From: Propionicimonas sp.
GTDB taxonomy: Bacteria; Actinomycetota; Actinomycetes; Propionibacteriales; Propionibacteriaceae
Reading direction: 5' to 3'
NCBI GenBank assembly: GCA_030158185.1
Contig: JAOATP010000213.1
Location: 1-33,651, forward strand
DNA length: 33,651 bases
Position numbers and translations under genes: made by a program. Positions 2,551 to 26,066 of this stretch are shown in pieces. The notes under the pieces are model-generated. The model saw nothing but the letters and a program-made list of their open reading frames with translations. It searched no databases and had not been told where the DNA came from. The first letter of the stretch is position 1, and the number at the start of each line of letters is the position of its first letter.

Positions 2551-3714
2551 TCAGTAGCCGAACACCTTCACCGGATGCAGGGCGGTCGTCGTGGTGTTGT
2601 CGCCCACAGCGCCGTAGACGTTGTAGCCCCAGCACTTGACGGCCTTCTTCGCCGTCACGACGCAGGTGTGCAGGTAGCCGACGGTGAGCTTGGTCGACTT
2701 GTCCAGGTTGTACACGTTGACCGGCTTCAGCGAGTTCGTGGTCGAGTTGTCACCCAGTGAGCCGTAGGCGTTGTAGCCCCAGCACTTGACCTTGCCCTTG
2801 GTGGTGAGTGCGCAGCCGTGCGTGACAGCCACCTTCACGGTCTTGATGCCCGAACCGAGGCCATAGACCCCGACCGGCTTGGACGAGCTGGTGGTCGAGT
2901 TGTCCCCGAGCTGACCGTTCCCGTTGTAGCCCCAGCACAGGGCCTTGTTCTTGCCGTTGACCGCGCACGTGGAGTACTGGCCCACAGAGATCTGCTTGAC
3001 CTTCTTGGTCAGCCCGTACACCGTCACCGGCTTGTTCGAATTGGTCGTGGAGTTGTCGCCCAGCTGTCCGTAGCTGTTGTTGCCCCAGCACTTGGCAGCA
3101 CCCTTCGACGTGATCGCACACGTGCCCGTGTAGGAGGACGAGACCGCCTTGGCACCCTTGGTGATGCCGTACACCGTGACCGGGGTCAGCGAGTTCGTCG
3201 TCGAGTTGTCGCCCAGCTGACCGTTGCCGTTGTAGCCCCAGCACTTCACGGCGCCCTTGGTCGTGATCGCACAGGTGTGCAGGTAGCCGGCGTCGATCGC
3301 CTTCACCTTGCCGAGGCCGGCCACGGCGACCGGCTTGGGCGAATTGGTGGTCGTGTTGTCACCCAGTTGACCGTAGGCGTTCCAGCCCCAGCACCACACC
3401 TTGCCCTTGGTGGTCAGCGCGCAACTGTGCATGTAGCCGGAGCTGACGGTCTTCACCTTCGAACCGAGGCCGTACACCCCCACCGGCTTGAGCGAGTTGG
3501 TGACCGAGTTGTCACCGAGCTGCCCGTAGGCGTTGTAGCCCCAACATCGCGCTGCGCCCTTGGTGGTGACGTCACAGGAGTGCACATAGCCACCACTCAC
3601 CGTGATGGCCTTGGTCGGCGCCGCATCGGCTGCGGCACCCGGCATGACCAGCACCGAACCCATCGCGATCAGCAGGCCGGCGACAACGCGCGGCCAGGGT
3701 AGACGACTTGCCAT
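2551..3714 (-). CDS. Secreted RCC1-repeat (beta-propeller) protein
   Basis: A 387-residue protein built almost entirely of seven tandem RCC1-type repeats of about 50 residues, each carrying a CWGYNxxGQLGDN-like core and a second cysteine about 14 residues earlier (HSCxxTTKG). Seven repeats predict a seven-bladed propeller, perhaps with one disulphide per blade. Residues 1-32 form a signal peptide: a short basic start, a hydrophobic core around 10-27 and an A-rich cleavage region (AAADAAPT). No LPXTG anchor is present, so it is probably released or loosely wall-bound. ATG at 3714 is chosen because AAAAGGGGG lies six bases upstream; longer readings run into the HAD gene antisense. Binding partner and function are unknown. 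Confidence 0.85.
   Translation of the reverse strand: MASRLPWPRVVAGLLIAMGSVLVMPGAAADAAPTKAITVSGGYVHSCDVTTKGAARCWGYNAYGQLGDNSVTNSLKPVGVYGLGSKVKTVSSGYMHSCALTTKGKVWCWGWNAYGQLGDNTTTNSPKPVAVAGLGKVKAIDAGYLHTCAITTKGAVKCWGYNGNGQLGDNSTTNSLTPVTVYGITKGAKAVSSSYTGTCAITSKGAAKCWGNNSYGQLGDNSTTNSNKPVTVYGLTKKVKQISVGQYSTCAVNGKNKALCWGYNGNGQLGDNSTTSSSKPVGVYGLGSGIKTVKVAVTHGCALTTKGKVKCWGYNAYGSLGDNSTTNSLKPVNVYNLDKSTKLTVGYLHTCVVTAKKAVKCWGYNVYGAVGDNTTTTALHPVKVFGY
2554..3612 (-). repeat. Seven tandem ~150-bp coding repeats (RCC1 blades)
   Basis: Within the gene for the secreted propeller protein the DNA repeats about every 150 bases, with strongly conserved blocks encoding CWGYNxYGQLGDN(S/T)TTNS. Seven copies are visible; the last (2554 onward) is the most diverged (GAVGDN, TTALHP). 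High identity between copies makes the tract prone to recombination and to assembly errors. Confidence 0.8.
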
Positions 3715-3805
3715 GAGAAACCCCCTTTTGGGCCAGCCATGTGGCGGCTGGACGTTCGTGAGGTGTGAGGCGGCGGCCGACGTCCTGATACGGCGAGGGT
3801 CCTGC

Positions 3806-4477
3806 CTAGCGGGCCACGTCGGGCGCGGTCTTGTCGAAGAGCAGTGCGCGGAGCTCCGCCATCGTGTCGACGACGGCCAGCGGGCCGGCGGCCACCAGGT
3901 CGTCGCGGTCCCCCGCCCCCCAGGTGACGGCGATCGAGGCCATCCCGGCAGCCCTTGCCGCCTGCACGTCGACAACGGCGTCCCCGATGTAGACGCACTC
4001 GGCGGGCCGGACGCCGAGGCGCTGCAACGCCAGCAGCAGGGGTTCCGGATCGGGCTTGTGGGCGTCGGTGTCCTCCATGGCCACCAGCAGCGGCAGGTGC
4101 CCGTCCAGCCCTGCTGCCCGCAACGTGTTGGTCGCGGAGACGTGGCGCTTCGACGTGACCACGCCGATGACGGCCCCGGAGCCTGCCAGATCGGCAAGGA
4201 GTTCCTCGACGCCGGGGTACTCCTCGAGCAGGTCGGTGAGGTGGTCGGCGTTCCACGCGACGTAGCTGTCGACCAGTTCCTGGGCCCGTTCGGGGTGTCG
4301 CCCCGAGAAAGTTCCGTACAGCGTCTGCCCGATCCAGCCTCGCGCTTCCTCCGGCGAGGGCCTTACCCCCAAGACTGACCACATTGCGTGCTCGTATGAC
4401 GCGATAATGAGCGGGATAGTGTTGACCACGGTCCCGTCCAAGTCGAAGACGACGACGGACCATCGGGGTGTAGGCAC
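3806..4477 (-). CDS. HAD-superfamily hydrolase (phosphoglycolate phosphatase / PpaX-like)
   Basis: A 223-residue haloacid-dehalogenase family phosphatase. Motif I is FDLDGTVVNT with nucleophile Asp12 and acid/base Asp14, motif II is VVTSK (Thr108), Lys141 in HKPDPEPL is motif III, and GDAVVD (165-170) is motif IV. An alpha-helical cap lies between residues 20 and 85. This is the Gph/PpaX subgroup, so small phosphate esters such as phosphoglycolate or pyrophosphate are plausible substrates, but the sequence does not decide. The start is GTG at 4477, directly before the usual N-terminal strand; a TATCCT box seven bases upstream suggests leaderless expression. It is divergent from the tetR-type gene, with 39 bases between starts. 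Confidence 0.85.
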   Translation of the reverse strand: MPTPRWSVVVFDLDGTVVNTIPLIIASYEHAMWSVLGVRPSPEEARGWIGQTLYGTFSGRHPERAQELVDSYVAWNADHLTDLLEEYPGVEELLADLAGSGAVIGVVTSKRHVSATNTLRAAGLDGHLPLLVAMEDTDAHKPDPEPLLLALQRLGVRPAECVYIGDAVVDVQAARAAGMASIAVTWGAGDRDDLVAAGPLAVVDTMAELRALLFDKTAPDVAR

Positions 4478-5154: not shown

Positions 5155-5814
5155 ATGAGCGCGGACCAGCCGGTCGAAGCCATGGCACCCCGTCGGCTGC
5201 TCGAAGAGCCCCCACCGGCTCCGGACGCAGCCGTGGAGCCTGTCCCCCAACGGCCTGCCCCGATCGCGACGGTCGCTGCGCCGCCGCAGCTGGTCGTCGG
5301 CATGCCGATCGACCCGCGGACGGGTGAGCCGCGCCGTCCCGTCGTCATCGTCCTCGCCACCGTGCTGTGCTGGCTCGCCGTCGCCATCACCGCAGCGTCG
5401 GTCCTGTGGGTCTACTGGGACGCAATCTCCCGCTTCGCGCAGGCCTCCTGGCTGATGGGCCAGTTCGTCACGGAGCCCGGCTCGCTGGAACGTGTGCTGC
5501 TCGCCGTGGCTGTCACGGCCGTTGCCATCATCATCGGCACCGCCAACGCGATCGTCGGCTACTACGCCTTCACCGGCTACCGGTGGACGCGGATCGCCGG
5601 CCTGATCAGCGCTGCCCTCACCTGCGGCGCCCTCGTCCTCAACCAGCTCGGCTGGTACGCCATCCCCGCAGCAGTGCTCGGCGCCGCGCTGCTCTGGCTC
5701 CCGCCGGCGAAGCGGTTCTTCATCGCCTGGACGGCACGGCGCCATCCGCAGCAGGTGTTCGCCCCTCCGACCGTCGACGTTGTCTACGGGCCGCTGCCCC
5801 GCTACCAGGCCTGA
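5155..5814 (+). CDS. Hypothetical four-helix membrane protein
   Basis: A 219-residue protein of unknown function. The first 60 residues are Pro/Ala-rich and probably cytosolic. They are followed by four hydrophobic segments near residues 62-88, 113-138, 146-163 and 167-184, then a short tail. ATG 5155 is preferred over an in-frame GTG at 5149 because GGAGG (5145-5149) is correctly spaced for the ATG and overlaps the GTG. The gene lies just downstream of the TetR gene, possibly co-transcribed, and its last 13 bases overlap the 3' end of the TreYZ gene on the other strand. No enzyme motif was recognised. Confidence 0.75.
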   Translation: MSADQPVEAMAPRRLLEEPPPAPDAAVEPVPQRPAPIATVAAPPQLVVGMPIDPRTGEPRRPVVIVLATVLCWLAVAITAASVLWVYWDAISRFAQASWLMGQFVTEPGSLERVLLAVAVTAVAIIIGTANAIVGYYAFTGYRWTRIAGLISAALTCGALVLNQLGWYAIPAAVLGAALLWLPPAKRFFIAWTARRHPQQVFAPPTVDVVYGPLPRYQA

Positions 5815-8800
5815 AGCGGGAGCAGCAGCGCACCGGCATGCGGCGGCAGGACCACCGTCGTCCCCGTCACCCGCGCCCCTGCCGGTGTCGCCCAGCGCAG
5901 CTGGTGCCGTCCGTCCAGTTCGACCACGGCCTCCTTCTCGCCGAAGTTCACGACGACGGCGAGTCCGCCGCGGCGCATCAGGAACCAGCGGGCGTCCTCG
6001 TCCACCTCGCAGGTGGTGCGCGCCAGCACGGGGTTGGTCAGCTCTGCATACTGCCTGCGCAGCGTGATGAGCTCCCGGTAGGTGTCCAGCAGCACCTTGT
6101 GCCGGCCGTCTGCCACCTCGGCCCAGGCCAGCTTCGCCGAGAGGAAGGTCTCCGGGTCCTGTGGGTCGGGAACCTCGTCGGTGTCCCAGTCCATCCTCGC
6201 GAACTCGGCCAGCCGCCCATCGGTGACCGCCGCCCCGAGGTCGGGCTCCGGATGGGAGGCGAAGAACGGGAAGGGCGTGCTGCTCCCCCACTCCTCACCC
6301 TGGAAGAGCATCGGCGTGAACGGCGACGTGAAGACAACGAGCGCAGCGCAGGCCAGCTGGTCGACGTCCAGCAACTCCGTCGGGCGATCCCCCCTGGCCC
6401 GGTTGCCCACCTGGTCGTGGTCGGAGCTGTAGACAACGAGCCGCCAGCCGGGCACCTTCCCGGTATCCAGCGGACGCCCGTGCGGACGCTCCCGGAAGCT
6501 CGAGTACGTGCCGTCGTGGAAGAAGCCACGCTCGCACACCTTCGCCAGCGCTGACAGCGGGGCGAAGTCGGCGTAGTAGCCCTGGGTCTCCCCGGTCAGT
6601 GCCACGTGCAGCGCGTGGTGGAAGTCGTCGCTCCACTGCGCGTCGATGCCGTAGCCGTCGGCTTCCACCGGCGTGATCAGGCGCGGATCGTTGAGGTCGG
6701 ACTCGGCGATCAGGGTCAGGGGGCGCCGCAGGTGGGTCGAGAGGTCGGCGGCCACCTGGGCCATCTCCTCCAGGACGTGCGGACGCGACTCGTCGACAAG
6801 GGCGTGCACGGCGTCCAGCCGCAGCGCGTCCACGTGCAGGTCGACGAACCAGTGCCGCAGGTTCTCGCTGATCAGGCGACGGACCTCTTCGCTGCCCTCG
6901 CCATCGAGGTTGATCCGGCTGCCCCACCCGCTCTGCTCATCGGTCAGGTACGGGCCGAACAACGGCAGGTAGTTCCCGCTGGGTCCCAGGTGGTTGTAGA
7001 CCACGTCCTGCACAACGGCCAGCCCGAGCGAGTGTGCAGCGTCGACGAACCGGCGGTAGGCGTCCGGCCCACCGTACGGCTCGTGGACGGCGAACCACGC
7101 CACCCCGTCGTAGCCCCAGCCGTGCTCGCCGTTGAAGGCGTTCACCGGCATCAGCTCGACGAAGTCCACGCCCAGCTCCACGAGGTGCGGCAGCCGGCCG
7201 ATCGCAGCGTCGAGGGTCCCCTCTGCCGTGAACGTTCCGACGTGCAGCTCGTAGATCACGCCGCCGGCCAGCCGGCGGCCCGTCCAGCCATGGTCGTGCC
7301 ACGCGAAGCCGCCCGGCTCGAACGTGCGCGACAACCCGTGGACGCCGAACGGCAGCCACCGGCTGCGCGGGTCCGGCACGGGATCGGTGCGGTCATCGAT
7401 CAGGTAGCCGTAGTCAACCCTGCCCAGCGGCTCCGGCTCTGAAGGGGTCCACCAGCCGTCATCCGACCTCGTCATGGGCACGATCCGGTTGGCGACCTGC
7501 AGGCGCACCCGCTGCGGCAGCGGCGCCCACACGTCGAAGCGTCCGCGTTCACCGGCGCGACGCTCCTCGCGCACGAGCAGCGCGACCGGGTAGTCGCAGA
7601 GGACGTCTGCCACCAGGGCGCTGCCGGCGTCGTCCGTTGCCACCAGCCGTCCCGACACCTCGTCGCGCCAGCGTCCCTCCGGGAGCGGCAGGACGGTGTC
7701 GCCCCAGCCACCGGCGGCGGCGAGGCCGACCGGCAACCGGGTGGCGAGGGCGATCGCACCGCCGCGGTCGAAGGCGATCAGGTGGCCGGCGGAGTCACCG
7801 ACAGCAGCCAGCGGCGTGTAGCCGCCGAACAGCTCCGGGTGGTCGCGGCGCAGCGTGAGCGCCTGGTGCACGAGCAGCAGCTTCGCCTCGCCGACGTCTC
7901 CCGGCGCGCAGGCGAGGGCTGGACGCCGCCCGGTGCGCACCTCCGTGAGGAGGCGTCCACGTTCCGCGAAGTCGACCGGCCGGCGGTTGTCGGGATCGAC
8001 GAGGCTCAGCTCCCACAGCTCGCTGCCCTGGTACAGGTCGGGCACGCCGGGAATCGTCAGGTCGAGCATCTTCGCAGAGAGGGCGTTGCTCCAGCCGGGC
8101 CCGGCGACGAGGTTCGCCACCCGCTCCAGCACGGCCACAACGGCCGGGTCGTCGAAGGCTGCGTCGACGCAGGCCTGCACCGCCGACTCGTACGCAGCGT
8201 CCGGCGCGGTCCAGCCGGTGTGGTCCCCGCCCTCGCGCATGGCCTTCTCCGCGTACGCGTGCAGCCGGTCGCGCTCGGCCGGCCAGGCACCGATGACTGC
8301 CTGCCACAGCAGGTTGGCGAAGCCGGGGTCGGGCATCGGCACGAGCCGCTGCAGCTCGGCAAGGGCTTGCGCCCATGCGCCGGGCACCTCGGAGAGGACG
8401 CTGATGCGGGCACGGACGTCCTCCCCTCGCTTGGTGTCGTGGGTGGTGCCGGCGTTGAGCGCGACCGGCCACAGCTCCTGACGCAGCCCCATCAGGCGGT
8501 GGAAGTCCTCCACCCCCACGAAGAACAGGTCGGGGTCGCCGCCCACCTCGTTCAGGGAGGTCAGCCGCGACCAGCGGTAGAACGCGCCGTCCTCGACAGC
8601 CTTGGCCATCACCATGCCCGAGGTCTGCTGGAAGCGCTGCGCCGGCCCGGACGCACCGTCGGCCAGCACCGGGTAGAGCAGGTCGAGGACGGGGCCGAGG
8701 TCGGGGCGGTGCTCCCACGCGAACCCGAACGCACGGTCGAGGTACTCGTGCCCCTCCGGGAGGTAGGAGCGGTACACCTCGAAGTCGGCCAGCAGCTCGG

Positions 8801-9941
8801 CGACGGCAGCCACCACCTGCTCGAAGTCGGGCTGGTCGGTGGCGTCGGCGCCGGCCAGCACCTCACGCGCGATCCGGCGCACCTCCGAGTTCAGGATCGT
8901 GTAGGCAACGGCGAGCTTGCTCTCGTGCACCAGTTGCGACCACACCACCTCGCGTCCCCGCAGCCCGTTCTCCAGCTCGGTGAGCCCGGCCTCGCCGGCG
9001 GGGTCGACCAGTACCCGGTCGATCAGCGCAAGCGCGTCGTACCCAGTGGTGCCCGCCGTCGCCCAGACCGACGGCAGCTGTTCGAGCACCACGCCCTCCG
9101 CCTCGTTGCGCCCGATCGCGAGGATCTTCTCCACCAGCACGTAGCTGCCGCCGGTGAGGGTGGCCAGGTCCTCCAGGTACTTGCCGGGGTCCCGGAGGCC
9201 GTCGGGATGGTCGACCCGGAGGCCGTCCACCAGGCCCTCGTCGAACCACCGCTTGATCTCGGCATGCGACTTGCTGAACCACTCCGGGTCCTCCACCCGC
9301 AGCGCGACAAGGGTGTTCACGGCGAAGAACCGCCGGTAGTTCAGGTTGCTGTCCGCCTCGCGCCAGCTGATCAGCTCGTAGTGCTGCCGGGCGTGGACGG
9401 CGTTGGGATCCTCGTCGGCCCCCCGGGCGGTGTCCGGCGCCAGCGGGAAGCGCTGGTCGTGGTAGTGCAGCTCGCCGCCGAGGACGGTGAGGTTGTCGAT
9501 GCGGCCGTCGGGCAGCAGGTCGTCGTCGCCGACGACCGGGATGCGCAGCCTGCCGCCGCCGGCGGCCCAGTCGATGTCGAAGGCGCTGGCGTACGGCGAC
9601 TCCTGGCCGAGGGTGAGGACGTGCCACCACCACTCGTTCTCCTCCGGCCGGGCCACCCCGACGTGGTTGGGGACGATGTCGACGAGCACACCCATCCCGA
9701 GCCGCTTCGCCTCCGTCGCCAGCGCAGCCAGCCCGGACGCCCGTCCCCGCGAGGGATCGATCGCCCGATGGTCGGAAACGTCATAGCCGTGGTCGCTGCC
9801 GGTCTCCGAGGCCAGCAGCGGGGAAAGGTACACCCAGTCGACGCCCAGCTCGTGCAGGTACGCGACCGTCCGGGCCGCCGCAACCAGGTCGAAGTCCTCG
9901 GTGATCTGGAGGCGGTAGGTGCTGACCGGGGTGCGGGTCAT
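5802..9941 (-). CDS. treYZ: Fused maltooligosyltrehalose synthase - maltooligosyltrehalose trehalohydrolase (TreY-TreZ)
   Basis: One uninterrupted 1379-residue polypeptide carrying both trehalose-forming enzymes. Residues 1-~797 are TreY (GH13), which turns the reducing end of a maltodextrin into an alpha,alpha-1,1 linkage: STYRLQ start, GLRVDHPDGL with nucleophile Asp244, and Glu271 in VLVEKIL. Residues ~800-1379 are TreZ (GH13), which cuts off trehalose: FDVWAPLP carbohydrate-binding start, GWGYDGV, Asp1043 in LRLDAVHAL, Glu1080 in LIAESDLND and Asp1176 in SDHDQVGN. Both halves are about full length for separate enzymes. In other genomes they are usually separate genes, often beside treX/glgX, which here lies 2 kb away. 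The ATG at 9941 has a poor ribosome binding site. Confidence 0.92.
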   Translation of the reverse strand: MTRTPVSTYRLQITEDFDLVAAARTVAYLHELGVDWVYLSPLLASETGSDHGYDVSDHRAIDPSRGRASGLAALATEAKRLGMGVLVDIVPNHVGVARPEENEWWWHVLTLGQESPYASAFDIDWAAGGGRLRIPVVGDDDLLPDGRIDNLTVLGGELHYHDQRFPLAPDTARGADEDPNAVHARQHYELISWREADSNLNYRRFFAVNTLVALRVEDPEWFSKSHAEIKRWFDEGLVDGLRVDHPDGLRDPGKYLEDLATLTGGSYVLVEKILAIGRNEAEGVVLEQLPSVWATAGTTGYDALALIDRVLVDPAGEAGLTELENGLRGREVVWSQLVHESKLAVAYTILNSEVRRIAREVLAGADATDQPDFEQVVAAVAELLADFEVYRSYLPEGHEYLDRAFGFAWEHRPDLGPVLDLLYPVLADGASGPAQRFQQTSGMVMAKAVEDGAFYRWSRLTSLNEVGGDPDLFFVGVEDFHRLMGLRQELWPVALNAGTTHDTKRGEDVRARISVLSEVPGAWAQALAELQRLVPMPDPGFANLLWQAVIGAWPAERDRLHAYAEKAMREGGDHTGWTAPDAAYESAVQACVDAAFDDPAVVAVLERVANLVAGPGWSNALSAKMLDLTIPGVPDLYQGSELWELSLVDPDNRRPVDFAERGRLLTEVRTGRRPALACAPGDVGEAKLLLVHQALTLRRDHPELFGGYTPLAAVGDSAGHLIAFDRGGAIALATRLPVGLAAAGGWGDTVLPLPEGRWRDEVSGRLVATDDAGSALVADVLCDYPVALLVREERRAGERGRFDVWAPLPQRVRLQVANRIVPMTRSDDGWWTPSEPEPLGRVDYGYLIDDRTDPVPDPRSRWLPFGVHGLSRTFEPGGFAWHDHGWTGRRLAGGVIYELHVGTFTAEGTLDAAIGRLPHLVELGVDFVELMPVNAFNGEHGWGYDGVAWFAVHEPYGGPDAYRRFVDAAHSLGLAVVQDVVYNHLGPSGNYLPLFGPYLTDEQSGWGSRINLDGEGSEEVRRLISENLRHWFVDLHVDALRLDAVHALVDESRPHVLEEMAQVAADLSTHLRRPLTLIAESDLNDPRLITPVEADGYGIDAQWSDDFHHALHVALTGETQGYYADFAPLSALAKVCERGFFHDGTYSSFRERPHGRPLDTGKVPGWRLVVYSSDHDQVGNRARGDRPTELLDVDQLACAALVVFTSPFTPMLFQGEEWGSSTPFPFFASHPEPDLGAAVTDGRLAEFARMDWDTDEVPDPQDPETFLSAKLAWAEVADGRHKVLLDTYRELITLRRQYAELTNPVLARTTCEVDEDARWFLMRRGGLAVVVNFGEKEAVVELDGRHQLRWATPAGARVTGTTVVLPPHAGALLLPLQAW

Positions 9942-14264: not shown

Positions 14265-14283
14265 CCGCTGATCGCGTCAGCGG
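14265..14283 (-). terminator. Possible weak terminator at the end of the pdu operon
   Basis: A 7-base-pair hairpin (CCGCTGA / TCAGCGG, five-base loop) overlaps the pduP stop codon. No U-tract follows on the minus strand, so this is a weak candidate. It is the only obvious hairpin between pduP and glgX. Confidence 0.3.
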
Positions 14284-15683
14284 ACGTTGAGTCCCCCGAC
14301 CAGCACGCAGCGACGCCGCCGGGCGAAAGTGCGGGCAGAGGTGAGGCCCTCGCCCGTCGGCCCGGCGATCGTGAACGAGCAGTAGCCCTCGCCACCGATC
14401 CCGATGCCGGCGTAGGACGGCCCGTTCTTGACGAAGATGGTGGTCTGGATGCGCTTGGCCATCCTTGTGAGGGCGTTCACGTCCGTGGAGTGCATGATCG
14501 CGGTGTGCCGGTTGCCGTGCTCGGCGATGACGGCATAATCCATGCCCTGCTCGACGTCCTTCACCCGGACGATCGGCAGCACCGGCATCATCAGCTCGAC
14601 CCGCACGAAGGGGTGCTCGAAGGGCACCTCCGCGATGATCAGCCGCGTTCCGGCCGGGGCGTCGATGCCGATGGCCTTCAGGATCGACGGTGCGGACTTG
14701 CCGATCCAGTCGGTGACGGCGTGGCGGCCGTCCACGACGAGGGCTTCGAGCTTGGCGATCAGTGCGGGGTCGCGCAGCTCGTAGGCGCCGTTCTTGAGCA
14801 TCTCGAACTTGAGCAGGTCGGCGATGGCCGCAACGGCCAGCACCTCCTTCTCCGCCGTGCACGGCAGGTTGTTGTCGAAGCTCGCGCCGTCGACGATGTC
14901 CTTCGCCGCCTTCTCGATGTTCGCCGTCGCGTCCACGAGGGCCGGCGGGTTGCCTGCGCCCGCGCCGATCGCCTTCTTGCCGCTGGACAGCACGGCCTTG
15001 ACGATGCCGGGGCCACCGGTGGCGACGAGGAGTCGCACCAGCTTGTGCTGCATCATCGCGTTGGTGTTCTCGATCGACGGTTCCATCACGGTGACGATCA
15101 GGTTCGGCGGGGCGCCCGCTGCCACCAGGGCGTGGTTGAGCTTGCGGATCAGCCAGTGGCTGACCTTCGTCGCCCGCGGGTGCGGGCTGAAGACCACGGC
15201 GTTGCCCGCTGCCAGCATGCCGATGCCGTTGTTGATGATGGTCTCTGTCGGGTTCGTGGTGGGCGTGATCGCGCCGATCACCCCGAACGGGGAGATCTCG
15301 ACCGTTGTCAGGCCGGCATCGCCCGACCAGGCTTCCGTGACCAGGTCCTCCGTGCCGGGCGTGAGCTCCGCCACCGCCCGGTTCTTGGCGATCTTGTCCG
15401 GGACATTGCCCATGCCGGTCTCCTCGACCGTCGAGCGGGCCATGAACTCGAGGTGCTCCGGGATGAGGGCAACGTCACGGATCGCCTTGACGAAGCGGGC
15501 GCGGTCCTTCATCGAGCAGTTCAGGTACGCGCGCCAGGCGGTGTCGGCGGCGACGATCGCGCTGTCCATATCGGGAAAGATGCCGTCGGTGACGGTGGCC
15601 GGGGGACAACTGCTCGCCCCGACGACCTGGCGGACGACTTCTGCTACGACCTGGCGAACGGTCTCGTCGCTGATGGTGCTCAT
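14277..15683 (-). CDS. pduP: CoA-acylating propionaldehyde dehydrogenase PduP
   Basis: A 468-residue microcompartment lumen enzyme that oxidises propionaldehyde with NAD+ and CoA to propionyl-CoA. The catalytic cysteine is Cys275 in NNLPCTAEKEV. ITPTTNPTE (139-147) and the GAGAGNPPALVD block are typical of the PduP/EutE group. Residues 1-21 form an amphipathic helix (ETVRQVVAEVVRQVV) followed by a flexible linker, the usual encapsulation peptide. It is the last gene of the minus-strand pdu operon, two bases after the pduO stop, with GCGAGA as a modest ribosome binding site. Length matches the family (about 460). Confidence 0.95.
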   Translation of the reverse strand: MSTISDETVRQVVAEVVRQVVGASSCPPATVTDGIFPDMDSAIVAADTAWRAYLNCSMKDRARFVKAIRDVALIPEHLEFMARSTVEETGMGNVPDKIAKNRAVAELTPGTEDLVTEAWSGDAGLTTVEISPFGVIGAITPTTNPTETIINNGIGMLAAGNAVVFSPHPRATKVSHWLIRKLNHALVAAGAPPNLIVTVMEPSIENTNAMMQHKLVRLLVATGGPGIVKAVLSSGKKAIGAGAGNPPALVDATANIEKAAKDIVDGASFDNNLPCTAEKEVLAVAAIADLLKFEMLKNGAYELRDPALIAKLEALVVDGRHAVTDWIGKSAPSILKAIGIDAPAGTRLIIAEVPFEHPFVRVELMMPVLPIVRVKDVEQGMDYAVIAEHGNRHTAIMHSTDVNALTRMAKRIQTTIFVKNGPSYAGIGIGGEGYCSFTIAGPTGEGLTSARTFARRRRCVLVGGLNVR

Positions 15684-15685
15684 GG

Positions 15686-16693
15686 CTATCTCGCTTCCTG
15701 AACTGCGGAAATTGCGTGCGTGACGATGCGGACGTCCTCTTCGACCGTGCCACCGGAGACACCGATGCCCCCGCAGATCCGGCCGTCGATGAAGACCGGC
15801 AACCCACCCCCGAAGACGACGACGCGGCCGTCGTTGGAGTTCTGGATGCCGTGGAGTTCCCCAGAAGGGGTGGACGCGTCCTTCAGCGCCGACGTCGGCA
15901 GCCTGAAGGCTGCGGACGTGAACGCCTTGCCGATGGCGATGTCGATGCTGCCCAGCAGGGAGTCGGTCATGCGGTGCAGCAGCATCAGGTTGCCGCCGGC
16001 ATCGACGCCGGCGAACACGATCGGCACGCCCAGCTCCGAGGCCTTGGCCTCAGCTGCCTCGGCCATCAGCTTCAGCGTGGCCAGGTCGTAGCTGGCCGGC
16101 TCGCCGGCGGCGTCGTTGACGCCGGCGAGGGCCGCGGCGACGGCTCGTCGTACGACCTGCTCGATCATGGTCATGTCGTGGTGGTGCTCGGTGAGCCGCG
16201 CGAGCGCATAGAGCGTGTCGGAGAGCCGGTTGAGGTACTTGATCAGCTCCGGACGCACCGGGATGGTCTCGCTCATCGTCAGGACCCGGCGTTCGGCCCT
16301 CCGGACAACCGTCCGCGCGCGGTGCAGGGCTGCGGAGGGGACGTCCCGTCCGGGGACGACGAACTCCCGCTGCGGGCCCGTCACCACCTGGCACATGTCA
16401 ATCAGGTCTTCGAGGTCCTTCACGTCGGCCGGACCGACGGTGTTGGCCAGGATCTCCCGGCCCTTGGCATCACTGGCCAGTTCCGCAGCGACGACGAAGA
16501 GCCGTTGCTGGATGCCGTGCAGGGTCGCCCGGACGGAGTCGTCCATGGCGACGGCCTTCGCCTCACCGATCGCCGAGTTGGCCTCGTCGACGGTGCCGTA
16601 GCCCTCGACGCCGGGATCCTGCTTGGGCACGCGCGAGCCACCGAACAGGCCGGTGAGACCGGCGTCGCCGGTGCGCGTGTAGACGTTGGGCAT
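15686..16693 (-). CDS. pduO: Two-domain cobalamin adenosyltransferase PduO
   Basis: A 335-residue protein with the same two-domain plan as Salmonella PduO. Residues 1-~190 are the PduO-type ATP:cob(I)alamin adenosyltransferase: TRTGDAG (6-12) for ATP, GTVDEANSAIG (33-43), an Arg-rich helix near 124-136, and NRLSDTLYALAR. Residues ~200-335 are a DUF336/GlcG-HbpS-like domain (GVPIVFAGVDAGGN, GGLPVFIDGRICGGIGVSGG), known in this family to bind haem or cobalamin. It makes adenosylcobalamin for PduCDE. It needs cob(I)alamin, yet no PduS reductase gene is in the window. Three bases separate it from pduN. Confidence 0.93.
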   Translation of the reverse strand: MPNVYTRTGDAGLTGLFGGSRVPKQDPGVEGYGTVDEANSAIGEAKAVAMDDSVRATLHGIQQRLFVVAAELASDAKGREILANTVGPADVKDLEDLIDMCQVVTGPQREFVVPGRDVPSAALHRARTVVRRAERRVLTMSETIPVRPELIKYLNRLSDTLYALARLTEHHHDMTMIEQVVRRAVAAALAGVNDAAGEPASYDLATLKLMAEAAEAKASELGVPIVFAGVDAGGNLMLLHRMTDSLLGSIDIAIGKAFTSAAFRLPTSALKDASTPSGELHGIQNSNDGRVVVFGGGLPVFIDGRICGGIGVSGGTVEEDVRIVTHAISAVQEAR

Positions 16694-16696
16694 CCG

Positions 16697-16966
16697 CTAC
16701 TCCTGCTCGATCTCCACCGCGTCGACGATCCCGACGATGGTCGAGTCGATCGGCGAATCGGGGCGCGAGGACACCCGTGCCGAGCTGCCGCCGGTGACGA
16801 TCACGGTCTCACCGACCCCGGCGCCGACCGTGTCGACCGCAACCTGCGGCAGGCCGATGTACTCGCCGTTGATGCCGAGCCGCATGACGACGAGCAGCTT
16901 GAACCCGACAAGGCGCTCGTCCTTGCTTGTCGAAACGACGGTTCCGCGAACCTTGGCCAGGAACAT
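16697..16966 (-). CDS. pduN: BMC vertex protein PduN (EutN/CcmL family)
   Basis: An 89-residue pentamer-forming shell protein that closes the twelve vertices of the microcompartment. The family start MFLAKVRGTVVSTSKDE, the central GFKLLVV and the glycine-rich GAGVGETVIVTGGSSAR are all present. ATG 16966 is chosen for GAGAGG six bases upstream; a longer in-frame reading would begin inside the preceding flavoprotein gene. The gene starts one base after the flavoprotein stop. Confidence 0.93.
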   Translation of the reverse strand: MFLAKVRGTVVSTSKDERLVGFKLLVVMRLGINGEYIGLPQVAVDTVGAGVGETVIVTGGSSARVSSRPDSPIDSTIVGIVDAVEIEQE

Positions 16967-16967
16967 G

Positions 16968-17828
16968 TCACACCTCTCGTGAGATCCGGATGGAACGGGC
17001 CGCAGCAAGGTCCCGCGCCATCGCGGTCACCTTCGCTGTGGCGGGGATCCGCAGTTCGACCCCGTCGGGCAACGGCTGGATCACCTGGTTGCTGATCAGG
17101 CTGCGGGTGCAGGGCACCACGCCTGGAGTGGGGGCCGGTGCCGCCTCCACTGCGACGGTGTCGGCGTCGGCACCCGAAGCTGCGGAGGCCGCGGCCCACG
17201 CTGCGACGTTCGTTGCGAACCCGGCGACAGAGGTGCCCATCGCGGCGACCACCGGCGCGCGTCGGGCCTCGTCGCGGCGCTCGAAGGCGGCGATCGCCGT
17301 GCGGTAGAGGAACCGTGCATCCGAGAGCCGCACCCCGAAGGATGCCAGCGTTGCGAGGTTCGACCGCAGCAGGTCGGCGTAGGCCGGAGGCATGTTCGGG
17401 AACCATCCGCGCTTGGGTGCTCCGTCGGGGCAGATGGCACTCCGCGACACCACGACAAGACGGTTGCTCATGATGAACTCGCTGAACAGGTTGCTGGCGA
17501 GGCAGTCGGCGACGCCGTGGGACACCTTGGCAGCGATGTTGCTGGTGAGCGTCGGGGCGAGGAGCATGTCGTGCTCCTCCACCATCTTCGTCGACACCTC
17601 CCGCATGCCGATGGAGGCGATCTTCGCCTGGTCCAGAACACGCAGGGCGCTCGGGGTCTGCAGGTAGTCCAGCTGGACGCCGGCTGCTGCCAGCAGCTTC
17701 AGCTCATCGACCGCCTGGTCGAAGCCCAGCAGCCCGCCAGTGAACAGCACGAGGGCGCGCCGGGGAGCGGGGGTCATGAGCTCGAGGATCGCTTCGAGGA
17801 TGATGGCGCGCAGTTCAGCCTCAGTCAT
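16968..17828 (-). CDS. BMC-associated flavoprotein (PF02441-like) with EutT/EutQ-like C-terminal segment
   Basis: A 286-residue protein not found in the Salmonella pdu operon. Residues ~22-185 look like the flavoprotein fold of phosphopantothenoylcysteine decarboxylase and UbiX: RRALVLFTGG at the start and PTLTSNIAAKVSHGVADCLASN (92-113), the region that contacts FMN in that fold. The catalytic His of PPC decarboxylase is not evident. Residues 1-18 (MTEAELRAIILEAILELM) resemble an encapsulation peptide. After an Ala/Pro-rich linker (~205-238), residues 241-284, including GVELRIPATAKVTAMARDL, resemble the N-terminal segments of EutT and EutQ as I recall them. Function is unknown. The position before pduN-pduO makes a role in cobalamin reduction or handling possible (inference). 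It overlaps the eutJ-like gene by eight bases. Confidence 0.8.
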   Translation of the reverse strand: MTEAELRAIILEAILELMTPAPRRALVLFTGGLLGFDQAVDELKLLAAAGVQLDYLQTPSALRVLDQAKIASIGMREVSTKMVEEHDMLLAPTLTSNIAAKVSHGVADCLASNLFSEFIMSNRLVVVSRSAICPDGAPKRGWFPNMPPAYADLLRSNLATLASFGVRLSDARFLYRTAIAAFERRDEARRAPVVAAMGTSVAGFATNVAAWAAASAASGADADTVAVEAAPAPTPGVVPCTRSLISNQVIQPLPDGVELRIPATAKVTAMARDLAAARSIRISREV

Positions 17829-18666
17829 CGCCGAGCTCCTTCATGGGAATGCCGAGTGGCGTAACGAACAGTGGCTCGATCGGCCGGACGACCGGCCGTC
17901 CGAGCCTGGAGGCGAACACGTCGGGAGCGTTGGGGAAGGAGCTGGAGCCACCGACGAGGTAGACCATCGGCACGTCGTAGCCCACAAGGGCAGCCTGCGC
18001 GATGGAGGCCATCTTCTCCAGGGTGGGGCGGATCACGCCGATCACGTCGTCGCGCCGGGCCGGGTCCTTCTTCATCACCTCTGCTGCGTCGTAGTCGATC
18101 TTGTAGGCGCCGGCGAGGACGAGGTTCATGTGGTGGCCACCGGTGGCCTCGTCGATGCTCTTGAGTACGCGGCCACCGGCGAGGATCGACACCCCGGTGG
18201 TGCCGTGGCCGACGTCGATGACGCAGCCGTCGGCGATGCCGAGCGCGCGGGCCGCTGCGACCGGCTCGTCAACGACCTCGTCGGTCTCGAGGCCCGCAGC
18301 CGTGGCGACGTTCCGGAAGACCTTGATGTCGCCTTCGCTGATGCCCGGCGGGATCGAGACCGACGCCGTCGTGAAGCGGTGGCCGAGCCTTCGCTCGACG
18401 TCCTCCTTCAGCCGGCGGACGGCCGTCGTCGCGCCGGCCCAGTCGACGACGACACCGTCGCGCACGACAGTGGAGTGCACCCAGGCACCGGCGACCGGAC
18501 GGTTGCCGCCGTCCACGACGGACACGACGATGTTCGCCGTGCCGAGGTCGATGCCGAGTCGCAGGTCCCCCCGCGGCTCCTCGACCTCTCCGGTGCGCAC
18601 CAGTTCCGCGAAGCGGCGGATCGCGGCTTCGGGTGCCATCAGGGCAGGCGCCATTGTCGTCGTCAC
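17821..18666 (-). CDS. eutJ: EutJ-like Hsp70/actin-fold chaperone
   Basis: A 281-residue ATPase-fold protein matching EutJ in length and motifs: phosphate-1 LGIDLGTANIVVSVVD (residues 37-52), phosphate-2 VIDVGHGTTGVS (149-160) and the adenosine motif VYLVGGSSSFP. It lacks the substrate-binding domain of true DnaK. EutJ belongs to ethanolamine microcompartment operons, where its role (assembly chaperone or reactivation) is unproven. Here it sits inside a pdu operon between pduL and the flavoprotein, roughly where Salmonella has pduM. The GTG start overlaps the pduL stop as GTGA, implying translational coupling. A later Met (codon 5) is an alternative start. Confidence 0.85.
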   Translation of the reverse strand: MTTTMAPALMAPEAAIRRFAELVRTGEVEEPRGDLRLGIDLGTANIVVSVVDGGNRPVAGAWVHSTVVRDGVVVDWAGATTAVRRLKEDVERRLGHRFTTASVSIPPGISEGDIKVFRNVATAAGLETDEVVDEPVAAARALGIADGCVIDVGHGTTGVSILAGGRVLKSIDEATGGHHMNLVLAGAYKIDYDAAEVMKKDPARRDDVIGVIRPTLEKMASIAQAALVGYDVPMVYLVGGSSSFPNAPDVFASRLGRPVVRPIEPLFVTPLGIPMKELGDD

Positions 18667-19304
18667 TCCTTGATCAGCTTCCCGACATCACCGTCGTGCA
18701 GGCCGAGGGCGTTGGCCTCGTCGGTGTCGAGGTGGATCTCCGGTACCCAGTCGTCCTTGATCCGGATGATGAAGTTGTCCATCACCCCGCCCCGCTCGCC
18801 ACCGAACGCCACCTTGACCAGGTCCTGGTCCTTCACGCCCCATGCCCTGGCGTGACTCGGGCCCATGTGGATGTGCCGCGCGGCAACCATGACGCCGTGC
18901 TCGACGTGGATCTTCCCCGCAGGGCCCACGATGTCGATCGGCCCGGCGTCGTCGAGGTAGCCCGACTGCGTGATCGGGGCGGTGATGCCGAGCGTCACAC
19001 AGTCGGTGAGGCTGAGTTCCACCTGCGTCTTCGCGCGGCAGGGCCCCATCAGCCGGAGCTTCGGGAACGTCCCGCGTGGTCCGGAGACGGAGACCGTCTC
19101 CTCCGCTGCGAAGTCGCTCGGCTGGCGCACCTTCCGGTACACCGTCATGGCGTCGAGACCGAACAGGGTTGCCAGGTCTGCCTTGCTGAGGTGGGCGTGC
19201 CGGTTCGACACACCAACGACAATCTGCAGTTCGAGGTCCTGCAGCCGGGTGAGCACCATCCTGGTCACCTCCTCGACGACGTGACGGGTGTCCGGAACTG
19301 CCAC
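18663..19304 (-). CDS. pduL: Phosphate propanoyltransferase PduL
   Basis: A 213-residue lumen enzyme that converts propionyl-CoA and phosphate to propionyl-phosphate, returning CoA to PduP. It is unrelated to Pta and uses two metal ions. The expected ligands are visible: His36 and His38 (SNRHAHLS), Glu96, His144 and His146 (AARHIHMGPSHA) and His191 (PEIHLDTDEAN); Arg90 in MGPCRAKTQVE matches the catalytic arginine position. The N-terminal RHVVEEVTRMVLTRL is a plausible encapsulation helix. It starts one base after the pduJ stop and ends in a four-base overlap with eutJ. Confidence 0.95.
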   Translation of the reverse strand: MAVPDTRHVVEEVTRMVLTRLQDLELQIVVGVSNRHAHLSKADLATLFGLDAMTVYRKVRQPSDFAAEETVSVSGPRGTFPKLRLMGPCRAKTQVELSLTDCVTLGITAPITQSGYLDDAGPIDIVGPAGKIHVEHGVMVAARHIHMGPSHARAWGVKDQDLVKVAFGGERGGVMDNFIIRIKDDWVPEIHLDTDEANALGLHDGDVGKLIKE

Positions 19305-19599: not shown

Positions 19600-20160
19600 C
19601 TACTTCTTGGTGGAACGAGTCCTTGTGGTGCTGCGTGGCTTGACGCTGGCCGAGCCGGCAGAAGCCTCGGTGACGGGCGCAGCGATGGTTTCTGCCGGCT
19701 CGACCAGCGGCTCCGGGGTGGGGGTTTCGACAGCCTCGGCCACCGTCTGCTCGACGGGGGCAGGGGTCTCGACAGGCTCGACCACCGTTTCCTCCACGGG
19801 CTCCGGGGCCGGGGCCGGGGTCGGCGCCGGAACAGGGGCAGGGGCAGGGGCGACAGCCTTCGGCTTCGCGAAGCCGACGGTCTCTGCGGTGTACACGACC
19901 GACTCCACCTGGTCGCTCGGGCGGGCGATGATCGAGGTGGCGAACACCTTGGAGACCCGTGCGGCGGCTGCGCTCGCTGCTGCGACGGCTGCCTGGACGG
20001 CGGACACCTGGCCTTCGATCTTCACGGCCACCATGCCCATCCCGTCTGTGGTCTCGTAGCCGATCAGCTTGACGTCAGCTGTCTTGAGTGCGACGTCCGC
20101 GGCCTCGACCGCGGCGGGCAGGCCGAGCACCTCGATGGTGCCGAGGCTCAGTTGTGGCAT
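19600..20160 (-). CDS. pduK: BMC-H shell protein with long acidic Pro/Ala-rich tail (PduK-like)
   Basis: A 186-residue shell protein. Residues 1-~92 are a BMC domain (LGTIEVLGLPAAVEAADVALKTADV, then GQVSAVQAAV). Residues ~100-170 are a low-complexity tail of Pro, Ala, Val, Glu and Thr with AP/TP dipeptides and a repeated VETPxP pattern. The last dozen residues are strongly basic (KPRSTTRTRSTKK). Salmonella PduK also has a C-terminal extension, but with a cysteine motif; no cysteine is present here. The tail may reach into lumen or cytosol and bind cargo, other compartments or nucleic acid (inference). Eleven bases separate it from pduH. The pduK name rests on operon position and domain layout. 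Confidence 0.82.
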   Translation of the reverse strand: MPQLSLGTIEVLGLPAAVEAADVALKTADVKLIGYETTDGMGMVAVKIEGQVSAVQAAVAAASAAAARVSKVFATSIIARPSDQVESVVYTAETVGFAKPKAVAPAPAPVPAPTPAPAPEPVEETVVEPVETPAPVEQTVAEAVETPTPEPLVEPAETIAAPVTEASAGSASVKPRSTTRTRSTKK

Positions 20161-25283: not shown

Positions 25284-26066
25284 TCAGATGTAGGGCGTGG
25301 TGACGGACTCCGGGTACGCACCCATGGCGCCCAGCAAGCCGCGGCCGACCTCGCGTGCAGCGATGATCGCCTGGCGCACAGCGCCGGAATCGCCACTGAA
25401 GAACGAAATGACCTCGTTGGAGTAGCTGGTGCCGGCAGCGGGGCTGGCGTAGCCGACGACGTCAATCGTCGATGCCTTGACGGCGGTGTCGGCGAGAACG
25501 ACGCCGATCGCTGCCGGGGCGCCGACCGTGATGCCGAAGGCCTTGCCGATCGGTGCGCCGAACGCCTTGTTCAGGGCGTAGGAGGCACGAGCGGTGTACT
25601 GGAACTCGAGGTGGCCGGCATCGTTGGCATAGACGTCGCCGAAGGTGCGGTCGAGCTCGCTGATGGTGACCTCGACGGCGCGACGGGCGTCGGAGACGTC
25701 CTCTGCACCGAAGATGATGAGGGAACCGTGTCCGGCGCCACCCTTGGTGTCGCGGGGCAGCTCGATCGTCACGATCTCGCAGTTGGTCGCCTTGACGGCT
25801 TCGTCAGCGGCGAAGATGTGCGGGCCGGCGCCGGTGCGGGCACCGACGATGCCGATCGACTTGTACTTGGGATCGATCTTCATCAGGGCGTGGACCTGGG
25901 GGTCGACGTTGGCGATGACGAGGCCGATCGTGTCGCCCAGCGCGCTGGCGCAGACGAACTCCGTGGATGCCGGACGGGCACCGGCCTGTTTCGGGGCCGC
26001 TGCGGGCCCGTCCATCTTCTTCATGACGGCTGCCATGATCTGGTTGACCAGTTCTTCAGTTGCCAT
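25284..26066 (-). CDS. pduB: Tandem-BMC trimeric shell protein PduB
   Basis: A 260-residue shell protein with two fused BMC domains that forms trimers (pseudohexamers). The N-terminal helix MATEELVNQIMAAVMKKMD resembles the encapsulation peptides and is known in Salmonella to link shell and cargo. FVCASALGDTIGLVIANVDP opens the first domain, and GDVYANDAGHLEFQYTARASYALN is the family core. The second domain ends with FFSGDSGAVRQAIIAAREVGRGLLG. No internal ATG, GTG or TTG that would give a PduB'-like short form was found at the expected place. Thirteen bases separate it from pduC. Confidence 0.94.
   Translation of the reverse strand: MATEELVNQIMAAVMKKMDGPAAAPKQAGARPASTEFVCASALGDTIGLVIANVDPQVHALMKIDPKYKSIGIVGARTGAGPHIFAADEAVKATNCEIVTIELPRDTKGGAGHGSLIIFGAEDVSDARRAVEVTISELDRTFGDVYANDAGHLEFQYTARASYALNKAFGAPIGKAFGITVGAPAAIGVVLADTAVKASTIDVVGYASPAAGTSYSNEVISFFSGDSGAVRQAIIAAREVGRGLLGAMGAYPESVTTPYI

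Follow-up and report, generated by a model that had tools for sequence, protein, structure and literature searches.

The window, i.e. the whole 33,651-nucleotide stretch of DNA analysed here, contains a pdu operon on its minus strand, in which the genes are arranged in the order of pduB, pduC, pduD, pduE, pduG, microcompartment (BMC) shell genes, pduL, eutJ, a flavoprotein gene, pduN, pduO, and pduP (Table 1). The location of the flavoprotein gene inside a pdu operon, which had been proposed in the first-pass annotation of this DNA, was borne out by the family matches of the neighbouring genes. The plus-strand frame at 16968–17828 is interrupted by an early stop and is not the gene, and the start of pduN was placed at an internal Met of the ORF at 16697–17008. 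The genome bin that contains the window (G000; 2.84 Mb, 80% complete) is actinobacterial-looking, and the closest named relatives by PduB are Propionibacteriaceae. PF02441 matches once in the whole bin, at the flavoprotein gene; a CoaBC gene, which would be expected, thus did not show up in this 80% complete bin.

Several other features of the window were recognized. The gene at 19600–20160 (minus strand) encodes a PduK-like BMC shell protein (PF00936), the long tail of which is rich in Pro, Val, and Glu and terminates with basic residues. By visual inspection, a single frame of 1379 residues at 5802–9941 (minus strand) appears to be a TreY-TreZ fusion, whose first part resembles maltooligosyltrehalose synthase and whose second part resembles trehalohydrolase, and one frame at 2551–4197 (minus strand) contains approximately seven RCC1-like repeats.

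Table 1. Genes of the pdu operon considered in this study and segments of the flavoprotein encoded in it
Feature	Position in window	Strand	Basis or remark
Flavoprotein gene, pduM slot	16968..17828	-	ORF with ATG, 286 aa; PF02441 over cut-off; AlphaFold2 pLDDT 93.3
Residues 1-19, start helix, encapsulation-peptide-like	17772..17828	-	Helix 3-18 in AlphaFold2 model, pLDDT ~90
Residues 22-187, HFCD/DmrB-type flavoprotein core	17268..17765	-	PF02441; VIA-align to DmrB; flavin loops kept
Residues 188-235, linker: helical, then flexible and Ala-rich	17124..17267	-	Low pLDDT
Residues 236-286, C-terminal module common to the PduM C-terminus and EutQ/EutT N-termini	16971..17123	-	Profiles; AlphaFold2 model
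eutJ, upstream neighbour	17821..18666	-	NF011660, 337 bits, over its cut-off
pduL	18663..19304	-	PF06130
pduN (EutN/CcmL vertex protein), downstream neighbour	16697..16966	-	PF03319
pduO, two-domain	15686..16693	-	PF01923 and PF03928
pduP-type aldehyde dehydrogenase	14277..15683	-	NF011927
pduB shell protein	25284..26066	-	TIGR04501 over cut-off; bait for related-locus scan

The flavoprotein-fold core recognized in the first-pass annotation was confirmed by a PF02441 match over the cut-off, by structural matches, and by conserved flavin loops. PF02441 matched residues 25–127 of the window protein with 26.7 bits (cut-off, 22.7 bits; E 4.8e-6) and was detected in 56 of the 60 aligned flavoproteins at E 0.01. 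The AlphaFold2 model built from the 60-sequence alignment (pTM 0.74; pLDDT in Table 1) showed the highest VIA-align similarity to DmrB (4mwg; Z 18.1, rmsd 2.6, 155 residues aligned), followed by a second DmrB entry (3wis; Z 17.6); MrsD, CoaBC, UbiX-type, and decarboxylase entries were found at Z 14–16, and Foldseek ranked CoaBC and UbiX first. The linker reaches a mean pLDDT of 51 over residues 221–230 and <50 at residues 231–233. In the alignment, G31, G35, A61, and D108 are each conserved in 59 of the 60 sequences, T/S95 in all 60, K101 in 57, and N97 in 54; G165 falls within the same range (54–60 of 60), and L94 is also among the conserved core residues. We presume that these conserved loops correspond to the flavin-contacting loops of the HFCD family, and the window protein probably carries FMN. 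Because the flavin loops are kept in 90–100% of the 60 relatives, the flavin site is under selection here, and a purely structural job therefore cannot be the whole story.

An amphipathic start similar to those of PduD and PduE had also been described. The model supports a helix at residues 3–18, and by eye this helix resembles the starts of PduD, PduB, and PduP of the window, but its amphipathicity did not stand out: the hydrophobic moment was 0.59, as compared with a background 95th percentile of 0.60, in what is a weak test of this property. The median moment of the N-termini of the flavoprotein family was 0.58, and 33% of 73 exceeded the background 95th percentile. This measure fails to separate classes of proteins, because EutJ reaches 0.66 while PduE and PduB reach just 0.43. 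A helix-like hydrophobic pattern was detected in 62 of the 74 family N-termini, as compared with 15% of internal stretches. In addition, the PduM profile also matches the N-terminus (residues 5–28) of the flavoprotein of a related locus, L078.

The C-terminal block that had been delimited at residues 241–284 is indeed present in the window protein. It belongs to a module of approximately 50 residues that forms a confident β-α-β-α-β unit in the model, and the same unit was obtained when the module was folded alone (pLDDT 85). Before profiles were built, entries that were duplicates, CoaBC-like, fragmentary, or of uncertain start were left out (L001, L002, L004, L005, L015, L033, L034, and L100), and the removal of identical copies reduced the set from 83 to 74; the tail profile was then built without L037, and the full-length alignment without L030, L068, and L070. 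With the profile of 73 flavoprotein tails, 11,947 proteins and ORFs were searched. Beyond the flavoproteins themselves, it matched PduM (E 1e-10 to 0.15), EutQ (4e-8 to 2e-3), and EutT (4e-4 to 0.06); the first unrelated ORF appeared at E 0.3, and all better matches were to these four groups. In the HHalign comparison, the flavoprotein tail scored 59 to the PduM tail, 45.7 to EutQ, and 45.5 to EutT, as compared with 15.5 for the best of 250 decoy windows, which were cut from stop-to-stop frames of nine BMC families and represent a narrower null than a whole proteome. The earlier assignment of this block to the EutT and EutQ N-termini was thus upheld by profile comparison, with scores of approximately 45. 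Judged by the same profiles, however, the block is most closely related to the C-terminal end of PduM, a match that had been overlooked. The remaining pairs scored 35 (PduM tail and EutT), 28 (PduM tail and EutQ), and 31 (EutT and EutQ), and the best decoy window for the three queries scored from 14.2 to 15.9.

Curated models gave a similar but fainter picture. At E 0.01, the two PduM models run on the 60 flavoproteins matched 28 and 29 of them, the EutQ model three, and the EutT model one, and PF15953 (PduM) matched 17 of the 60; all of the curated PduM and EutT matches lie under the curated cut-offs. The best TIGR04493 (PduM) match among the flavoprotein relatives is that of L078 (41.1 bits; cut-off, 50), and one relative, L003, combines PF02441 and PF15953 in a single chain (PF15953 at E 5e-6, with 26.9 bits where the cut-off is 27). 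The window protein itself did not match the PduM models at E 0.01, and the NCBIfam EutT model touches its residues 253–282 at E 0.082. Neither a cupin nor a cobalamin adenosyltransferase domain is among its Pfam matches at E 1. A Foldseek search of the PDB with the isolated-module fold yielded nothing better than E 0.23, which is no proof of a new fold, and the best match of the module profile to PDB sequences (E 0.041) was not convincing. By sequence, none of the solved structures covers PduM or EutT, and the matches to EutQ start at residue 102.

The tail profile was then applied at E 0.01 to 29 whole genomes chosen from those of 62 flavoprotein loci. It identified 66 module places, 65 of which lie with other BMC genes, a BMC locus being defined here by an adjoining match to PduN, PduS, PduP, PduL, EutJ, or PduB; this context consists solely of a PduS fragment in L134 and solely of a PduP match in L140. 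By coordinates, 30 of the 66 places are known flavoproteins, and the other 36 were assigned from the surrounding DNA. The exception (L146; E 9e-4) is FdhD, which is not a BMC protein. Among 20 actinobacterial control genomes, one marginal match (E 0.007) was obtained. In genome G1499, the profile found PduM and two adjacent EutQ-/EutT-like genes and nothing else at E 0.05; the PduM, EutQ, and EutT of this genome read as enterobacterial. Therefore, the module is nearly restricted to BMC loci, and besides the flavoproteins it is carried by EutQ cupins, EutT, EutT-PduL fusions, an N-terminally extended PduL, a class V aminotransferase, and three tiny proteins. This range of carriers, together with the shared homology, agrees with the mobile BMC module postulated in the first-pass annotation.

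Some of these carriers deserve description. The tiny proteins (L136:6386–6667, L142:5588–5884, and L137:5871–6203) are encoded after PduS or PduN/EutN genes; they are 94–111 aa long (stop to stop), consist of the module and a helical tail, match no Pfam family, and by eye look like the N-terminal half of EutQ without the cupin. The class V aminotransferase (L138:3578–5038) carries the module at its N-terminus and is encoded directly before an EutN/PduN-type gene; it may be an unusual BMC cargo enzyme. Three frames of 434–451 aa (L131:5256–6557, L132:7321–8637, and L133:1468–2820) combine an N-terminal module with a PduL match, and Pfam identified adenosyltransferase and PduL domains in the L131 frame, which is thus an EutT-PduL fusion. 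These three frames are from the genomes of the Sporomusa loci L109 and L072.

The position of the flavoprotein gene also points to PduM. In the E. coli, Kosakonia, Enterobacter, Klebsiella, and Salmonella loci examined, pduM fills the gap between pduL and pduN, and the order in Listeria is pduL-eutJ-pduM-pduN-pduO-pduP. The same slot is occupied by the flavoprotein in the window, in Ilyobacter, in Rahnella, and in the E. coli grp locus. In a PduB-baited scan, 500 relatives were confirmed and the best 80 loci were kept (Actinomycetota, Bacillota, Alphaproteobacteria, and others); since these are the best of the 500 and the closest to the window, enteric-type loci are under-sampled. Of the 80 loci kept from the 500 relatives, 62 contain the flavoprotein, which lies directly before pduN in 54, and no ORF in these 80 has PduM as its best match. 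In 17 of the 18 flavoprotein-free loci among the best 80, matches to pduL, eutJ, pduN, and pduO are also absent. In L076, which likewise has no flavoprotein, pduO comes straight after the reactivase genes, without a match to pduL, a slot gene, or pduN. The eight flavoprotein-bearing loci that fail the distance rule comprise four in which the gene lies directly before pduO (L087, L092, L097, and L103), three that are cut near the gene (L079, L100, and L102), and one with an overlapping pduN frame (L083). The four loci of the first kind are Pelosinus loci, in which the flavoprotein gene adjoins pduO with no pduN match between them; in three of the four, a pduN-like frame is located far upstream on the opposite strand.

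The flavoprotein and PduM did not occur together in any locus examined, which suggests that each takes the place of the other. In genome surveys with PF15953, matches over the cut-off were obtained in 1 of 398 (class of G713), 1 of 398 (phylum of G709), and 2 of 197 genomes (order of G1499, a count that includes G1499 itself), and the match in a Sulfolobus control was below the cut-off. The one match in the class-of-G713 survey is in L118, where a 69-residue frame on the minus strand with a PduM-like C-terminus lies between EutJ- and PduO-like frames and may be a decayed pduM. Neither PduM nor EutQ was found in two scans of viral contigs.

We also considered the possibility that the core of PduM is a shrunken flavoprotein core. 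This idea was retained as no more than a suggestion: 21 of 134 decoys also attained the HHalign score between the PduM middle and the flavoprotein core (16.3). The PduM middle scored 19.3 against the flavin-poor set described below and 19.6 against both sets, each being reached by 2 of the 134 decoys. The colinear whole-protein alignment of PduM and the flavoprotein by HHalign (97%) had made the idea attractive, but its score stems largely from the two ends. A relationship between the PduM middle and the flavoprotein core is thus suggestive at best.

In the Listeria eut locus, where the module was found on EutT and on a TIGR02536 ('eut_hyp') protein, the latter is encoded directly before the EutN gene. 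Similar proteins are present in 11 further loci with PduN, PduS, or PduL matches, giving a set of 12. The core of this set is homologous to the flavoprotein core (HHalign, 98.8%), the C-terminal module is kept, and by eye the start is also kept. Nevertheless, G31, G35, and A61 are kept in none of the 12, N97 in one, and K101 and D108 in two each, as compared with 65–70 of 71 flavoproteins at the same flavin-site positions; T/S95, in contrast, remains in 10 of these proteins and G165 in 11. When run on two of the 12, the TIGR02536 model scored 232.8 bits for the Listeria protein and 93.3 bits for that of L136, against 152.6; it also matches 44 of the 60 flavoproteins. As these relatives keep both ends without most of the flavin residues, and as the module also exists on tiny proteins, the ends appear to matter more than the flavin.

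Building on the module homology, the pduM slot, the fold, the conservation of the flavin loops, and the near restriction to BMC loci, each of which was computed directly, we consider it rather likely that the window protein is a linker between the core and the shell of the BMC that bears a flavoprotein domain in mid-chain and acts as the counterpart of PduM in the sampled pdu and GRM loci. By analogy, the start helix would engage the enzyme core, like residues 1–23 of PduM, and the C-terminal module would bind the inner side of the shell, like the overlapping residues 9–41 of EutQ. The flavoprotein core would then be held at the shell-core boundary between the helix and the module and, probably carrying FMN, may serve in electron transfer, not decarboxylation.

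The two analogues have been characterized in Salmonella. Residues 1–23 of PduM were reported to target the core, and the loss of PduM to separate the core partly from the shell (PMC12108088, PMC9132943); the mSphere 2025 paper disputes the idea of Yang et al. that PduM and the PduB N-terminus make up the link jointly (PMC12108088). According to a Sci Adv 2025 study, deletions in Salmonella EutQ indicate that residues 9–41 go with the shell and residues 62–99 with the cargo, H1/H2 associate with the shell and H3/H4 bind cargo peptides, cargo peptides were seen by ITC and NMR to bind the N-terminal region, and the whole N-terminus is required to join shell and core (PMC12487888). The shell result in that study comes from an in vivo deletion of residues 9–41, a broader change than one that probes the module itself. 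For Enterococcus faecalis and Listeria, the same paper describes an EutQ without the first three helices and states that assembly in these organisms may differ; in the Listeria eut locus, EutT and the TIGR02536 protein carry the module instead. An earlier study reported that EutQ requires its N-terminus to bind EutM in vitro (PMC4827028).

Alternatively, the window protein may be primarily a lumenal redox enzyme, i.e. an FMN electron carrier possibly involved in cofactor recycling, with the start helix and the tail as targeting tags. We regard this as unlikely, because 12 homologues elsewhere keep both ends and lose most of the flavin residues, the slot is taken elsewhere by PduM, a protein without a flavoprotein domain according to Pfam, and the module is also present on tiny proteins without a Pfam domain. 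Such a role is nevertheless consistent with the strong conservation of the flavin loops and with the best VIA-align match being DmrB, a redox flavoprotein, ahead of MrsD, CoaBC, UbiX, and decarboxylases; moreover, 35 of the 60 flavoproteins match TIGR02700, weakly, and since the module is likewise found on the enzyme EutT, it may simply localize proteins. The presence of the module on several enzymes (EutT, a PduL, and an aminotransferase), and the fact that shell binding was tested for Salmonella EutQ alone in the literature consulted, could also be accommodated if the module were an oligomerization or partner-docking domain among lumenal proteins and not a shell anchor. This we consider improbable, because EutQ without residues 9–41 reportedly stays with polar cargo aggregates, apart from the shell assemblies (PMC12487888).

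The first-pass annotation had further inferred that the flavoprotein is a lumenal redox or cobalamin-handling enzyme and had suggested that it could replace a missing PduS reductase next to PduO. A search with E. coli PduS over 46 chosen flavoprotein-bearing genomes (E 1e-10) yielded no match in 14 of the 15 actinobacterial genomes (the exception being L070) or in any of the five Bacillaceae-type genomes, and none was found in the window's own bin, an absence that carries little weight because the bin is 80% complete. However, PduS matches were obtained in 24 of the 46, including three weak ones (G708, G709, and G721; 1e-34 to 1e-44), which we take to be probably RnfC. Frequent co-occurrence with pduS, which the first-pass annotation had named as a refuting observation, was indeed found: 16 of 29 genomes have a strong PduS match on the contig of a pdu or GRM flavoprotein, no more than 3 kb away from it. 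PduS is also present inside the flavoprotein-bearing loci L078 and L084, and the genes upstream in Ilyobacter include one annotated as a 4Fe-4S dicluster protein and one for a BMC protein, which may be PduS/PduT-like, as judged from their order. Furthermore, the flavoprotein is present in five GRM-type loci in which a glycyl radical enzyme is encoded and B12 diol dehydratase gave no match in the stretch examined. A takeover of the PduS job by the flavoprotein is thus hardly credible, and cobalamin handling finds no support; what stood of the earlier interpretation is the shared mobile BMC module and the flavoprotein fold.

Returning to the core-to-shell linker, we tentatively extend it to a broader scheme, which is possible but which we hold with less confidence than doubt. 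The shell-anchor module shared by PduM, EutQ, the tiny linkers, and the flavoprotein may have spread among BMC proteins and be a common lumen-to-shell fastener. The flavoprotein would represent the older form of the pduM-slot protein, with a redox flavin pinned to the inside of the shell, and PduM and eut_hyp would be flavin-less descendants or replacements. If true, this scheme would also explain how Gram-positive Eut compartments, in which EutQ has no shell-binding helices, are joined, i.e. through eut_hyp.

The mSphere 2025 paper describes PduM as structural and as lacking known sequence homology to proteins beyond Pdu compartments (PMC12108088), and the flavoprotein gives this poorly understood protein a relative. 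Since the module is common to EutQ, in which the overlapping region is shell-associated, the mode of action of PduM becomes directly testable. Moreover, a portable anchor of this type, functional at either terminus, would offer a practical way to tag cargo for loading. Related reports mention that a protein called PduM is more abundant on 1,2-propanediol in Propionibacterium freudenreichii (PMC8149966) and that pduM is apparently missing from the pdu cluster of Acetobacterium woodii (PMC7593272).

In the 2014 taxonomy of BMC loci, a flavoprotein is listed for GRM3 loci and proposed to be either an enzyme of the periphery or a shuttle for electrons, PF02441 is among the flavin domains frequent in BMC loci, and 'PduM' is absent from the main text (PMC4207490); a Clostridium beijerinckii paper repeats the flavoprotein listing for its GRM3 locus (PMC6384099). 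A text search of the 2021 catalog for six names gave zero occurrences (PMC8217296). In the open-access literature searched, mostly at listing level, no paper joined PduM, flavoprotein, and microcompartment, or flavoprotein, encapsulation peptide, and microcompartment, and one paper names TIGR02536. The occurrence of a flavoprotein in GRM3 loci has been known since 2014, and the link of the flavoprotein to PduM and the shared module were not met in the literature searched.

The window protein was also compared with known systems. The GRM3 flavoprotein of the 2014 taxonomy probably belongs to the same family, as judged from the GRM-type loci L012, L016, L083, and L084. With HFCD flavoproteins (DmrB, CoaBC/PPC decarboxylase, UbiX, and EpiD), the window protein shares the core fold and flavin loops, but just the core aligns (model residues 19–190 in most rows), with 10–22% identity. 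The TIGR02536 'eut_hyp' set has a homologous core and the same ends and mostly adjoins a PduN/EutN gene, whereas most of its flavin-site residues are gone. EutT carries the homologous module at its N-terminus, but its body is a cobalamin adenosyltransferase, unlike the flavoprotein. EutQ also carries it at the N-terminus, i.e. at the opposite end from that of the window flavoprotein, and has further helices (PMC12487888) and a cupin domain in place of the flavoprotein. PduM (PF15953, TIGR04493) shares with the window flavoprotein the slot, the type of start helix, and a homologous stretch of 45 C-terminal residues, but it is approximately 160 aa long as compared with 286 aa, and the similarity of its middle part to the flavoprotein core is not convincing.
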